DNA of 57,983 nt from an uncultured Flavobacteriales bacterium (GTDB taxonomy: Bacteria; Bacteroidota; Bacteroidia; Flavobacteriales_D; Sanyastnellaceae): contig CAJWIF010000003.1 in assembly GCA_913041135.1 (NCBI GenBank), positions 1 to 57,983 of the forward strand, given 5' to 3'. Position numbers and translations under genes: made by a program. Of this stretch, positions 2,285-52,202 are shown piece by piece. Position 1 is the stretch's first letter, and each line of letters opens with the position of its first letter. The notes beneath the pieces were generated by a model that was not told the origin of the DNA, did not search any database, and worked only from the letters and a program-made list of their open reading frames with translations.

Positions 2285-2292
2285 TAATTTTG
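2285..2292 (+). promoter_or_regulatory. -7 promoter element TAATTTTG of feoA
   Basis: An exact match to the Bacteroidota -7 consensus TAnnTTTG lies six bases before the ATG at 2298. Transcription would begin at or within a few bases of the start codon, so the mRNA would be leaderless or nearly so. No convincing -33 TTG was found at ideal spacing. Confidence 0.5.
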
Positions 2293-2297
2293 TGGAT

Positions 2298-2573
2298 ATG
2301 TTGGGAAAACGCCTTTCTGAAATGAAGCCCTTTGAAAAAGGAATCATCGATCGCATCGAATGCGAGGATGGAGCCATGGCTTTGATCGAAATGGGATGCT
2401 GTCCTGGAGAAGAAGTAGAAGTCGCTCACGTGGCTCCACGACGCGGACCCATGGCCATTGTGTCGGGTGGACGGAAGGTGGCATTGCGACGATCAGCAGC
2501 GGCTTTGCTTTGGGTTCGACCAGTGCTGATTGCAAGTGAATCGTTGCTTTCCAAGGAGCACGTCTGGGCCTAA
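2298..2573 (+). CDS. feoA: FeoA family ferrous iron transport accessory protein
   Basis: A small SH3-like FeoA-domain protein of about 91 residues, expected to work in the cytoplasm with the FeoB iron permease. Family features are the opening LSEMKPFEKGIIDRIE, the central IEMGCCPGEEVEVAHVAPRRGPMA and the final VALRRSAAALLWV strand pattern. The frame could also start at a GTG six bases upstream, but the ATG at 2298 fits the promoter element that ends at 2292. The gene is convergent with feoB, with the two ends about 35 bases apart, instead of lying upstream of it in one operon as is common. Confidence 0.85.
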   Translation: MLGKRLSEMKPFEKGIIDRIECEDGAMALIEMGCCPGEEVEVAHVAPRRGPMAIVSGGRKVALRRSAAALLWVRPVLIASESLLSKEHVWA

Positions 2574-40147: not shown

Positions 40148-40155
40148 CAAAGGTA
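40148..40155 (-). promoter_or_regulatory. -7 promoter element TACCTTTG of leuS
   Basis: An exact TAnnTTTG match on the minus strand, ending 19 bases before the leuS ATG. It is back to back with the deacetylase promoter, with 35 bases between the elements. Confidence 0.55.
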
Positions 40156-40190: not shown

Positions 40191-40198
40191 TATCTTTG
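40191..40198 (+). promoter_or_regulatory. -7 promoter element TATCTTTG of the polysaccharide deacetylase gene
   Basis: An exact match ending five bases before a GTG codon at 40203. It lies inside the longer reading frame that begins at 40161 and so argues that this longer start is not used. Confidence 0.55.
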
Positions 40199-40202
40199 CG
40201 AA

Positions 40203-40838
40203 GTGTATTTGCGTCAAACTCCCCCCTTACTCAAGGCCTTGGCTTCCCATCTCATTTGGAATGGGCCCGCACAGATGCATGGAGAGAATGCAGTGTACCT
40301 GACTTTTGATGATGGGCCGCATCCTGAAATCACACGAGAAGTGATGCGAACCTTAGCCGATTTCAGCACGCTAGCTACCTTTTTTTGCGTGGGAGAAAAC
40401 GTGGACCGTTACCCTGAGGTTTTGGATGAACTAAATGCTGCAGGTCACGGAATCGGAAACCACACCCAGCGGCATGAATCCGGATGGGGCACCGGACAAC
40501 GGGCTTACTTACGTAGTTATTTGGAGTGCCAACAGCGTGTTCAGAGTCCGTGGTTTCGGCCGCCTTATGGCCGTATTACCAAAGCACAAGCAGAGGCGCT
40601 TCATCCCCACACGCAAATTGTCATGTGGGATGTATTGAGTGCAGACTTCGACGATAAAAACACCCCAGAATCGTGCTTAGAACAGTTGATGATCAACACA
40701 CGACCCGGATCGATTGTCGTTTTTCACGACTCTCCTCGATCGGCGTCGCGCATGTTGCCTATTCTGAGTCCGTATCTCATCTGGCTGCAGGAACAAGGCT
40801 ATCGATGCGAGCTATTGCCTGCAGAGATGACCTCATGA
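40203..40838 (+). CDS. Polysaccharide deacetylase (NodB homology, CE4)
   Basis: About 211 residues from a GTG start. This start gives VYLRQTPPLLKALASHLIWN before the catalytic domain, which is the usual Bacteroidota N-terminus; the ATG at 40161 lies upstream of the promoter element. The CE4 motifs are intact: TFDDGPHPE (34-42, catalytic D36 and metal ligand D37), HTQRH (H87 and H91) and RPPYGR (119-124), then VMWDVLSADFDD and a final VVFHDS. It removes acetyl groups from a polymer such as peptidoglycan or chitin-like glycan. No signal peptide is visible. It is convergent with the DUF349 gene, with five bases between the stops. Confidence 0.85.
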   Translation: MYLRQTPPLLKALASHLIWNGPAQMHGENAVYLTFDDGPHPEITREVMRTLADFSTLATFFCVGENVDRYPEVLDELNAAGHGIGNHTQRHESGWGTGQRAYLRSYLECQQRVQSPWFRPPYGRITKAQAEALHPHTQIVMWDVLSADFDDKNTPESCLEQLMINTRPGSIVVFHDSPRSASRMLPILSPYLIWLQEQGYRCELLPAEMTS

Positions 40839-43097: not shown

Positions 43098-43105
43098 TAC
43101 TTTTG
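43098..43105 (+). promoter_or_regulatory. -7 promoter element TACTTTTG of prfB
   Basis: An exact TAnnTTTG match immediately after the recX stop and seven bases before the prfB ATG at 43112, so the mRNA would have almost no leader. Confidence 0.55.
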
Positions 43106-43111
43106 CCCTGT

Positions 43112-44215
43112 ATGATAACGACTGATCAACTCAACCTCCTACGCAAACGCGTGGAAGCATTGCGGGTATACCTGGACATTGATTCCAAATTGCTTGAAAT
43201 AGCAGAGGAAGAAAAGCGCACACAAGACCCAGATTTTTGGACCAATTCGAAGGAAGCAGAAGCGGTGATGCGCCGTTTGCGAACTTTAAAAACATGGACT
43301 GAAAATCACGCAGCATGTTCGTCGGCCGTAGAAGACATTCAGGTGCTCTTTGAATTTGTCAAGGCAGGAGAAGCTGAAGCTTCTGAAGTTGACGATGCGT
43401 GTAAAATGGCGGTTTCGGCCATTGAAGACTTGGAGTTTAAAAACATGCTGAGCGCAGAAGAGGACAATCTCAATGCGGTCATGCAGATTACTTCAGGGGC
43501 GGGTGGAACAGAAAGCTGCGACTGGGCTTCTATGCTCATGCGCATGTACCGGATGTATGGGGACCGAGCGGGATTCAAGGTAAAGGAATTGGATTTTCAA
43601 GAAGGGGATGTTGCAGGTATTAAGCAAGTGACTTTGGAATTCGAAGGTCCTTTTGCGTTTGGCATGCTGAAGGGAGAAAACGGGGTGCATCGATTGGTTC
43701 GTATCAGCCCGTTTGATAGCCAGGCCAGAAGGCACACTTCATTTGTTTCCGTCTACGTGTACCCGCTCGTCGATGATACCATTGAAATTGAAGTGAGTCC
43801 TGCTGACATCACATGGGAAACATTCCGATCGGGTGGTGCAGGGGGGCAGAACGTAAACAAGGTTGAAACTGGGGTCCGTGTGCGTCACGCGCCAACGGGC
43901 ATTGTGATTGACAACACGGAAACGAGGTCTCAACTTGGAAACAAGGAGAAAGCGATGCAATTGTTGAAGTCGCAGCTCTATGAAATGGAGTTGGCTAAGC
44001 GGCATGAGGCCCGCGCCGAAATTGAAGCCGGGAAGAAGAAAATTGAGTGGGGATCACAGATTCGTTCGTATGTCATGCAGCCATATAAAATGGTCAAGGA
44101 TGTGCGAACAAGTCACGAGACGTCCAATGTGGATGCTGTGATGAACGGAGACATTGATGGATTTTTAAAAGCTTTTTTGATGCAAGCTGGTTCGGGAGCA
44201 AAAGCTTCTGCTTAA
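43112..44215 (+). CDS. prfB: Peptide chain release factor 2, no programmed frameshift
   Basis: A 367-residue class I release factor reading UGA and UAA. The codon-recognition tripeptide SPF (199-201) marks it as RF2, and the GGQ loop (244-246, in [10 protein letters not shown]) triggers peptide release. The gene is one open frame: at the place where many bacteria have the CTT-TGA-C frameshift site, this gene reads TAC CTG GAC (Tyr20-Leu-Asp22), so the autoregulatory frameshift is absent. I use the ATG at 43112 instead of the TTG at 43103, which overlaps the promoter element. fumC follows after 22 bases. Confidence 0.95.
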
Positions 44216-46764: not shown

Positions 46765-46929
46765 TCAAGGTTGAGTAAGCAAAGGATGAACATGAGATAC
46801 TTCTCCAGCATCAGACCACTGTGGGCAATTGCAATTGCGGTGAGCTTTGTTTGATTGGCACGAGGAGAGACCTAATGTCATCAACCATCCGAATGCAAAC
46901 GCGATTCGGAGTGTTTTTTGTCGTGCCAT
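46765..46929 (-). CDS. Small lipoprotein of 54 residues
   Basis: A short predicted lipoprotein from the ATG at 46929. The N-terminus MARQKTLRIAFAFGWLMTLG is a signal sequence, followed by the canonical lipobox LSSC (Cys24). The mature part is only about 31 residues, with a CNCPQWS motif. I recall similar tiny Cys-Pro lipoproteins from other Bacteroidota, but no function is known. A promoter-like TATTTTCG ends eight bases upstream of the start, and the guanylyltransferase gene follows after three bases, so this is the first gene of that transcript. The longer upstream frame would overlap the promoter. Confidence 0.7.
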   Translation of the reverse strand: MARQKTLRIAFAFGWLMTLGLSSCQSNKAHRNCNCPQWSDAGEVSHVHPLLTQP

Positions 46930-46936
46930 GCTTTTG

Positions 46937-46944
46937 CGAAAATA
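46937..46944 (-). promoter_or_regulatory. -7-like element TATTTTCG of the small lipoprotein gene
   Basis: It matches TAnnTTYG on the minus strand, eight bases before the ATG at 46929. The mlaE-like gene diverges from the same short region. Confidence 0.4.
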
Positions 46945-46974
46945 CATCGAAAAACATGCAGAGCAGGGACGGTT

Positions 46975-47733
46975 ATGAAAGCTTATCTTCGTGCCATGCG
47001 CTGGTTGTTTCACATCGGAAGGTATATGCAGCTCCTGTCAGCGAGCTTTCGACGTCCTGAAAAAGGCCGGGTGTTTCGGAGCCTGTTGATTCGGGAGCTG
47101 GACGCAATCGGTACGCAGTCAATCGGCATCGTTGCATTGTTGAGTCTGTTCATGGGAGCGGTAATCTGTTTGCAGACGGCGCACCAGATCGGAGGGTGGA
47201 TTCCCGTTTACACGATTGGATTCACGGTGCGACAAACCATGATTTTGGAATTTTCGCCAACCCTAATCCCTGTTATTTTAGCAGGAAAAGTCGGTTCCAA
47301 CATTGCTTCCCAAATTGGAACGATGCGCGTAACGGAGCAAATTGATGCCCTGGAAATCATGGGCGTCAACAGCGCAGGCTATTTGATCTTGCCTAAAATC
47401 ATTGCAGGACTATGCATTGTGCCTTTTCTCGTCATTCTGAGCATGGTCATGGGCGTAGGTGCCGGTGCATGGGTGGGCGTGGCGACGGGGGTGAGTTCAC
47501 TGGCCGATTTTGAATATGGCATGCAAGTGGACTTTCATGTCTTTGATGTGATTTATGCTTTGACCAAGACGGTTGCTTTTGGATTTATCCTCACTAGCGT
47601 ATCTGCTTATCACGGGTATTATGCGGCCGGAGGAGCTTTGGAAGTGGGCCGTTCGAGCACGCGTGCGGTCGTGTGGAGTGTCGTCATCATCATGGTGACC
47701 AATTTGATTTTGACTCAAATGCTGCTCAATTAA
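46975..47733 (+). CDS. mlaE: MlaE/YrbE-type lipid ABC transporter permease
   Basis: A 252-residue inner-membrane permease of the MlaE family, which moves phospholipids between the membranes with an ATPase and an MCE protein. The ATG at 46975 (MKAYLRAMRWLFHIGRYMQL) is chosen over an upstream start. Family hallmarks are GKVGSNIASQIGTMRVTEQI directly followed by DALEIMGV, and VFDVIYALTKTVAFGFILTS. Five membrane segments are likely. The ATPase gene follows after nine bases. The MCE-domain partner is not in the window. Confidence 0.93.
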   Translation: MKAYLRAMRWLFHIGRYMQLLSASFRRPEKGRVFRSLLIRELDAIGTQSIGIVALLSLFMGAVICLQTAHQIGGWIPVYTIGFTVRQTMILEFSPTLIPVILAGKVGSNIASQIGTMRVTEQIDALEIMGVNSAGYLILPKIIAGLCIVPFLVILSMVMGVGAGAWVGVATGVSSLADFEYGMQVDFHVFDVIYALTKTVAFGFILTSVSAYHGYYAAGGALEVGRSSTRAVVWSVVIIMVTNLILTQMLLN

Positions 47734-51718: not shown

Positions 51719-51726
51719 TATATTCG
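51719..51726 (+). promoter_or_regulatory. -7-like element TATATTCG before the IPExxxVDY-family gene
   Basis: It matches TAnnTTYG and ends six bases before the ATG at 51732. A second start of transcription for this gene and pyk is possible here. Confidence 0.35.
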
Positions 51727-51731
51727 CGTTG

Positions 51732-52202
51732 ATGCAGTGGCTAGAAGCAGATTTTGCAGATGCATGTGATTTTGAGTTGATTGGGATCGGAAGTCATTTG
51801 CCTCCGCACCGGTTGACGTGGGAGCTAAATGGTCTGTTGGGCTGGCAGTTGCAATTTTTCAAGGTTTTGAATGTTCCTCAACGCAAGGAATCGACGAATC
51901 ACGTGGTATATCGCTATGTGGACGAGTCCCATTCATCTTCTTGCTCGGTAGCATTGATTGAAAACCGGACTCCTTCGGGGGTGCTTGCACGGTTTCAAGG
52001 AGCAGCCCAATTGGATTACTTGCTTCAAATTGGCGAGGGGGGATTGTCGGGAGATGAATGGCTGTCACAGTTAAAAAGCTGTACGGCCGTTGTGTATGCG
52101 CAGATGTTAGACCCGCTTCATTCTGGAGCGATGGAACATCTTGCTTTGCTTGACTTGGCTGAAACGAGCAGCCTGCATTTGGAAGGAAACGAAAAAAAAT
52201 GA
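51732..52202 (+). CDS. IPExxxVDY family protein
   Basis: A 156-residue protein between rnc and pyk, a position typical of the Bacteroidota IPExxxVDY family. The core FELIGIGSHLPPHRLTWELN (residues ~15-34) and WQLQFFKVLNVPQ follow that family. The name-giving motif is weak here, so assignment rests mainly on context and the N-terminal block. No function is established. The ATG at 51732 is preferred over the adjacent TTG. Its stop overlaps the pyk start by the ATGA arrangement, so the two are coupled. Confidence 0.72.
   Translation: MQWLEADFADACDFELIGIGSHLPPHRLTWELNGLLGWQLQFFKVLNVPQRKESTNHVVYRYVDESHSSSCSVALIENRTPSGVLARFQGAAQLDYLLQIGEGGLSGDEWLSQLKSCTAVVYAQMLDPLHSGAMEHLALLDLAETSSLHLEGNEKK

Follow-up and report, generated by a model that had tools for sequence, protein, structure and literature searches.

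Candidate promoter boxes next to start codons in the window

The window—the whole analysed stretch of 57,983 nt from an uncultured Flavobacteriales bacterium (Sanyastnellaceae; contig CAJWIF010000003.1 of assembly GCA_913041135.1)—carries feoA, a polysaccharide deacetylase gene, prfB, an IPExxxVDY-like gene, an mlaE-type permease gene, a small lipoprotein-like open reading frame (ORF) and an aldehyde dehydrogenase gene, each with a putative -7 promoter element 4-7 nt before its start codon (Table 1; distances are given as gaps, the number of nucleotides between box and start codon). Direct reading confirmed the six sites named in an earlier note on this DNA; the site of mlaE is not in that note. 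The boxes of feoA, the deacetylase gene and prfB match TAHHTTTG exactly; those of the IPExxxVDY-like gene, mlaE and the lipoprotein-like ORF are TTCG variants, and that of the aldehyde dehydrogenase gene has TTGG. The prfB box lies directly 3' of the stop codon of a recX-like gene. The lipoprotein-like ORF and mlaE are divergent (46929-46996), and the 66-nt gap between them holds both boxes, so that both transcripts are predicted to be leaderless or nearly so. Besides the contrasting element of leuS, further leadered elements were seen in the window at gaps of 15, 20, 24 and 38.

Table 1 Putative -7 elements adjoining start codons in the window, with the genes behind them and one leadered element for contrast
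Feature	Sequence	Position	Strand	Gap or predicted leader	Identification
-7 element of feoA	TAATTTTG	2285..2292	+	5 nt to ATG 2298	read directly
feoA		2298..2573	+	predicted leader 0-1 nt	FeoA domain (Pfam, scanned from upstream in-frame GTG)
variant element of aldehyde dehydrogenase gene	TATCTTGG	33726-33719	-	4 nt to ATG 33714	gene by Pfam
leadered -7 element of leuS (contrast)	TACCTTTG	40148..40155	-	18 nt to ATG 40129	
-7 element of deacetylase gene	TATCTTTG	40191..40198	+	4 nt to GTG 40203	
polysaccharide deacetylase		40203..40838	+	GTG start, predicted leader 0 nt	Pfam and NCBIfam
-7 element of prfB	TACTTTTG	43098..43105	+	6 nt to ATG 43112	
prfB (release factor 2)		43112..44215	+	predicted leader 1-2 nt	TIGR00020 above cut-off; Pfam
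small lipoprotein-like ORF		46765-46929	-		no family match (Pfam/NCBIfam)
-7 element of small lipoprotein-like ORF	TATTTTCG	46944-46937	-	7 nt to ATG 46929	
-7 element of mlaE	TATCTTCG	46984..46991	+	4 nt to ATG 46996	motif-blind start
mlaE-type permease gene		46996..47733	+	predicted leader 0 nt	Pfam MlaE (longer frame); TIGR00056 under cut-off
-7 element of IPExxxVDY-like gene	TATATTCG	51719..51726	+	5 nt to ATG 51732	
IPExxxVDY-like gene		51732..52202	+	predicted leader 0-1 nt	NF033205 37.6 bits, slightly under cut-off 40

The region of feoA holds a further feature: a ATTTGAATTCATTCTAAATACC-like box at about 2228-2256, some 45-70 nt upstream of the ATG and conserved in the genus loci (L181-L191), which resembles the operator of an iron regulator and may be one.

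Position of the box relative to start codons

The unusual feature is the position of the motif, not its abundance. TANNTTYG is not enriched in the window (34 observed versus 42.7 expected), and yet it stands at gap 4-8 in 3 of the 50 window genes (feoA, mlaE and the IPExxxVDY-like gene) when starts are chosen blind to the motif, versus 0.07 expected. An earlier run with a smaller training sample also called GTG 40203 of the deacetylase gene as a motif-blind start; the starts of prfB and the lipoprotein-like ORF were not among the motif-blind starts in either run. For the genome-wide analysis we sampled 856 kb of the 2,295-kb genome, in which a simple gene caller, choosing starts by dicodon score and blind to upstream sequence, found 694 genes (658 with sufficient upstream sequence).

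The histogram of distances peaks sharply at gap 4. Counted without gene calls over the 856 kb, TAHHTTYG lay 4 nt before ATG at 44 sites versus a mean of 8.1 per gap (k = 12-39), and before GTG at 6 versus 3.9; the peak was missing for TTG (4 versus 8.2), CTG (4 versus 4.7) and ATT (3 versus 9.3). The TTCG variant gave the same gap-4 peak (24 sites versus a mean of 3.6). Before the motif-blind starts of the 658 genes, TAHHTTTG occurred 12 times at gap 4, 3 times at gap 5, 4 times at gap 6, once each at gaps 8 and 9 and never at gaps 0-3 or 7; TAHHTTCG occurred 7 times at gap 4 and once each at gaps 5, 6 and 7. The earlier note had expected a genome-wide peak 5-8 bases after the element, which corresponds to gaps 4-7 here; the peak is there, on the near edge of that range. 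That a short, AT-rich motif should lie next to start codons in this way by chance is highly improbable: TANNTTYG is indeed short and unenriched in the window as a whole, but control motifs (reversed, complementary and permuted) gave no site at gap 4 in this genome, a whole-genome count of TAHHTTTG gave 66 sites at gap 4 versus 4 at gap 1, which shares its codon phase, and the sites are conserved in relatives, as described below. Before the 658 motif-blind starts, the reversed motif appeared once in gaps 0-9 and the complementary motif four times, always at gaps 5-8, neither at gap 4.

Counting a gene when the box preceded its called start or an alternative one (an in-frame ATG no more than 70 codons upstream or 50 codons downstream of the called start), TAHHTTYG stood at gap 4-6 in 54 of 694 genes, 27 at the called and 27 at an alternative start. 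Under the same rule none of the 694 genes had it at gaps 1-3, and the genome sample likewise had none at gap 0. The background, a mean of 2.93 per gap over gaps 12-39, amounts to about 9 for three gaps, which leaves about 45 of the 54 genes in excess (6-7% of genes); part of that background will be real leadered promoters. We estimate that a predicted promoter adjoins the start codon in at least about 6-8% of genes, roughly one in fifteen. Twenty of the 54 proteins were scanned with Pfam, and the families found include class II (D, K, N) and class I (W, Y) aminoacyl-tRNA synthetases, single-strand binding protein, the small chain of carbamoyl-phosphate synthase, CinA, RecR, a tRNA methyl transferase HUP-domain protein and a protein with an RlmN N-terminal domain.

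The element at gap 4-6 occurs in 25 of 178 divergent genes (6 at control gaps 20-22) and 25 of 296 co-directional genes spaced by 20 nt or more (control, 4), and is nearly absent from tightly packed co-directional (operon) genes (1 of 173; control, 2). This near absence points to a promoter rather than a translation signal. That the box might instead act in translation, within a longer leader transcribed from further upstream, is worth considering because in Flavobacterium johnsoniae translation is tuned by the bases ahead of the start codon, according to the parts consulted of a study of that species (PMC6847099); against it stand the 1 of 173 packed genes versus 25 of 178 divergent ones, the identity of TAHHTTTG with the promoter-box consensus and the edge of the distance distribution at 4 nt, and we regard it as quite unlikely. 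Read as promoters, the 54 genes (about 45 after local background) and the 25 of 178 divergent genes bear out the earlier claim of a notable share of leaderless or short-leader transcripts.

Shine-Dalgarno sites are scarce, as the earlier note had said of the window: the 4-mers occur at -20..-5 in 5.9% of the 630 starts other than the candidates, versus 9.5% and 11.4% at two control distances. The predicted leaderless share holds up, but not as an account of this general scarcity. Most consensus elements lie at gaps 10-99 (98 of 126 elements within 100 nt, background included), and a leaderless minority therefore cannot explain it.

Conservation among relatives and across genomes

Spacing between box and start codon is conserved while the flanks diverge, in near relatives for feoA, the IPExxxVDY-like gene, mlaE and the GTG-start deacetylase gene, and in 49 of 79 Flavobacteriales loci for prfB; in these five footprints the gaps vary by steps not divisible by 3. 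Of the 12 feoA loci of the genus, including the window's own, 10 have an exact TANNTTYG at gap 4-5 and two a one-mismatch box at gap 5, and alignments begin at residue 1 or 2; two order-level loci, aligned only from residue 5, have no such site before a start. The IPExxxVDY-like gene has TANNTTYG at gap 4-6 in 18 of 19 genus loci including its own (all matching from residue 1, with protein identity down to 47%) and TATCTTAG at gap 5 in the remaining one; three order-level loci, the ones examined of eight fetched, show no such site. Relatives of the next four genes were matches of at least 40% identity beginning within 8 residues. For mlaE, all 17 relatives listed have TANNTTNG at gap 4 (16) or gap 5 (1), nine of them as TTAG. 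The deacetylase gene keeps GTG with a box at gap 4 in 10 of the 11 relatives listed (7 exact, 3 with one mismatch), and the eleventh, aligned only from residue 5, has no such site; the match starts at residue 1 in 24 of 29 rows including its own, and the open frames of several relatives exceed it by just 0-2 codons. The gap of 7 of the lipoprotein-like ORF is kept in both relatives found (L021 and L023), and the site of the aldehyde dehydrogenase gene in one of two: the same-genus locus L127 has TATCTTCG at gap 5 and the family locus L166 none.

For prfB, whose closest named records come from uncultured Flavobacteriales or Bacteroidetes assemblies (95-100% identity), we collected 80 loci and counted 79, no start being found in the other. 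The nearest element lies at gap 4-7 in 49 of these 79 Flavobacteriales loci (14, 9, 18 and 8 for gaps 4, 5, 6 and 7), at a gap of at least 11 in 23, and is absent within 100 nt in 7; four of the seven carry a one-mismatch box near the ATG, and in another case among the seven (L043) the wrong start was assigned automatically and the true box lies at gap 5. In Brumimicrobium aurantiacum, B. salinarum and B. oceani the prfB element stands at gap 5. More generally, orthologues of candidate genes keep the gap 4-7 arrangement in 12 of 25 cases, and other genes show it in 13 of 249 (counting matches with 35% identity or more that begin within the first 12 residues, with 60 nt of upstream sequence required); the exact site is not kept in the other 13 of the 25. 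The predicted promoter arrangement is thus regular and conserved in the lineage, core genes such as prfB included.

The same alignments bear on whether the true start codons lie further downstream, in which case the codons next to the boxes would be spurious and the promoters would make ordinary leaders. Such a displacement would fit the 27 of 54 candidate starts that the dicodon score did not prefer, prfB among them, but it is hard to square with the other 27, which are motif-blind starts, with a peak specific to ATG, or with homologues that align from residue 1 for prfB, feoA, the IPExxxVDY-like gene, mlaE and the deacetylase gene; we consider it quite unlikely.

By one method, genes with the element at gap 4-6 number 54 of 694 in this genome, 18 of 263 in a genome of the same genus (G004) and 32 of 331 in one of the same family (G003), versus 12 of 348 in Chryseobacterium daecheongense (G188) and 10 of 286 in Brumimicrobium aurantiacum (G184). 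As a share of the elements up to 100 nt from motif-blind starts (gaps 4-6 and 10-99 only, background included), the counts are 28 of 126, 12 of 54 and 18 of 75 versus 9 of 81 and 8 of 67 in the same order. The pooled difference between family and outgroups is about twofold (Fisher p 0.005 for elements, 8e-5 for genes); the predicted leaderless share is thus about twice that of two other Flavobacteriales genera. Sites at gaps 1-3, both motifs together, number 3 in G004, 1 in G003, 2 in G188 and 3 in G184, and 0 in this genome. Another Chryseobacterium, sp. E1 (G187, CP078104.1, the record of L094), was left out in favour of G188 because its sample had very few long open frames—21 of at least 1,200 nt in 400 kb, as in an assembly with many small indels. 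Across 37 genomes of the class, including this one, gap-4 sites exceed gap-1 sites in all, and this genome ranks second in gap-4 excess per megabase (27.0) after a member of the same order (G071; 38.2). Among other families, f22, which lies outside the class, has a gap-4 excess of TAHHTTTG (202 versus 32 at gap 1; 8 genomes); no such excess was found in f14 (679 versus 749 at gap 1; 13 genomes) or in 10 of the 18 genomes of f21 (350 versus 389 at gap 1).

Predicted leaderless transcripts and the Shine-Dalgarno machinery

Very probably, these elements are housekeeping sigma-factor promoters of Bacteroidota that, standing 4-7 nt before start codons, give rise to leaderless or nearly leaderless mRNAs, and the sequence evidence supports the interpretation offered in the earlier note. 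In F. johnsoniae the -7 box TAHHTTTG was measured to end 4-5 nt before the transcription start (PMC6847099, in the parts consulted). With TAHHTTTG or a near variant 4-7 nt upstream of the start codon, transcription would begin 4-5 nt past the box, at the A of AUG or 1-3 nt upstream: gap 4 predicts a start at the A of ATG, and gaps 5-7 predict a leader of 0-3 nt. The sharp lower edge of the distribution at 4 nt is expected if the AUG must fall inside the transcript. Should the promoter reading hold, a leader of at most 3 nt leaves no room for a Shine-Dalgarno site in the transcript; the ribosome would then initiate on a terminal or near-terminal AUG, with neither such a site nor a 5' leader, a mode of entry that we infer here, as we do the transcription start, by likeness to leaderless initiation elsewhere. 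Transcription from further upstream may also run into prfB and other genes that follow a co-directional neighbour.

Two further features bear on the predicted transcription start. The base before the ATG at gap-4 sites is C in 30 of 36 cases and a pyrimidine (C or T) in 32, consistent with an initiator of the pyrimidine-purine type at the A of ATG. This supports such a start but does not decide it, because C is generally raised at ATG starts (0.45, versus 0.27 before any ATG) and at the expected -1 position of leadered promoters pyrimidines are only weakly favoured. Across 54 aligned sites, base frequencies show no clear -33 element (TTTG), nor is this element evident in F. johnsoniae as described in the parts consulted of PMC6847099.

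Leaderless mRNAs prefer AUG over other start codons. The gap-4 peak has the same preference (ATG, 44 against the mean of 8.1), to which the conserved GTG of the deacetylase gene is an exception, being kept in 10 of the 11 relatives listed.

Minorities of short or missing leaders have been measured in species of the same phylum that share the -7 box and in which Shine-Dalgarno sites are likewise generally scarce: 5.5% leaderless in F. psychrophilum and 3.7% under 10 nt in Bacteroides thetaiotaomicron, and for F. johnsoniae 13% of leaders up to 10 nt follows from its published figures, as far as these sources were consulted. The element share of our outgroups (11-12%) is close to the last value. 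Here the share is predicted from sequence, with gene-by-gene conservation in addition. A comparable arrangement is that of the TA-led genes of Actinobacteria and Deinococcus-Thermus, for which a survey gives mean leaderless shares of 19.2% and 39.4% (Zheng and others 2011, PMC3160421, in part): there, too, leaderless genes form a sizeable minority and are recognised by a promoter box some 12 nt ahead of the start codon, but the box is the Pribnow-like TANNNT, another promoter box. The same survey, in the parts consulted, reports leaderless genes for 1 of 37 Bacteroidetes/Chlorobi genomes; its Pribnow-like model is a limitation that the authors themselves point out. A later analysis, likewise consulted in part, connects nucleotide biases upstream of Bacteroidetes starts with leaderless mRNA or protein S1, citing reports that the leaderless fraction is high in the group. 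In the titles and abstract beginnings of the papers listed, we found no account of gene-by-gene conservation of promoters touching the start codon in Flavobacteriales, and by title none of the papers found on leaderless mRNA and prfB concerned Bacteroidota. The case is well supported and of a known kind; its predicted share is higher and its conservation deeper than the published figures consulted would suggest.

The Shine-Dalgarno machinery of the genus has some peculiarities of its own. An Rfam search of 22 genus genomes recovered one complete 16S gene and one partial; a pattern search for the 16S 3' end matched 24 places, and none of the 20 fetched was 16S. The complete gene (L281, from the same-genus genome G024) ends GGATTATCTCCTTT and its tail reads GGCTGGATTATCTCCTTTTT, with UCUCC in place of CCUCC as the anti-Shine-Dalgarno core, on the thin evidence of this one 16S gene. 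In three genus members (L286, L287 and L288), no AGGAG, GGAGA or AAGGAG was found within 60 nt upstream of rpsU (match at 1501), but there is a -7 element about 18-21 nt ahead of the probable ATG; of the five rpsU loci, two were left out, one for not reading as bS21 at the expected offset (L285) and one as a second, different copy in its genome (L284). This is unlike rpsU as reported for Flavobacteriales, where it is the one ribosomal gene with a Shine-Dalgarno site, and a strong one (PMC8710568, in the parts consulted).

The prfB gene of the window (43112-43200) and its nearest relatives are without the programmed frameshift. Eighteen of the 80 prfB loci (L021-L100) match only from residue 21 and appear to have it, most of those listed showing AGGGGGTAYCTTTGAC or a close form. 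This frameshift site itself contains TAYCTTTG, a perfect -7 box. In the Weeksellaceae, an altered core (UCUCA) likewise goes with a prfB that has no frameshift, according to the parts consulted of PMC8710568. In the genus studied here, the UCUCC core, rpsU without its site and the missing frameshift may belong together.

The predicted prfB promoter is kept 4-7 nt from the start codon through several lineages. On this ground we raise, tentatively, the possibility that selection has long maintained leaderless initiation as a way of expressing genes in those Flavobacteriales that lie outside the best-studied families. The window's genus might have gone further, leaderless starts partly replacing the remaining use of Shine-Dalgarno sites, a reading suggested by the UCUCC core (one complete 16S gene), rpsU without a site (three members), prfB without a frameshift and the conserved, predicted leaderless GUG start.

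Work continues on how Bacteroidota ribosomes locate start codons in the absence of Shine-Dalgarno pairing. The conserved genes with predicted leaders of 0-3 nt, including prfB in cultured Brumimicrobium species, make up a defined set for tests of leaderless initiation, and the box 4 nt before ATG gives a simple rule for checking the annotation of start codons. The results also suggest that leaderless genes of this class are undercounted by surveys that rely on the Pribnow box.
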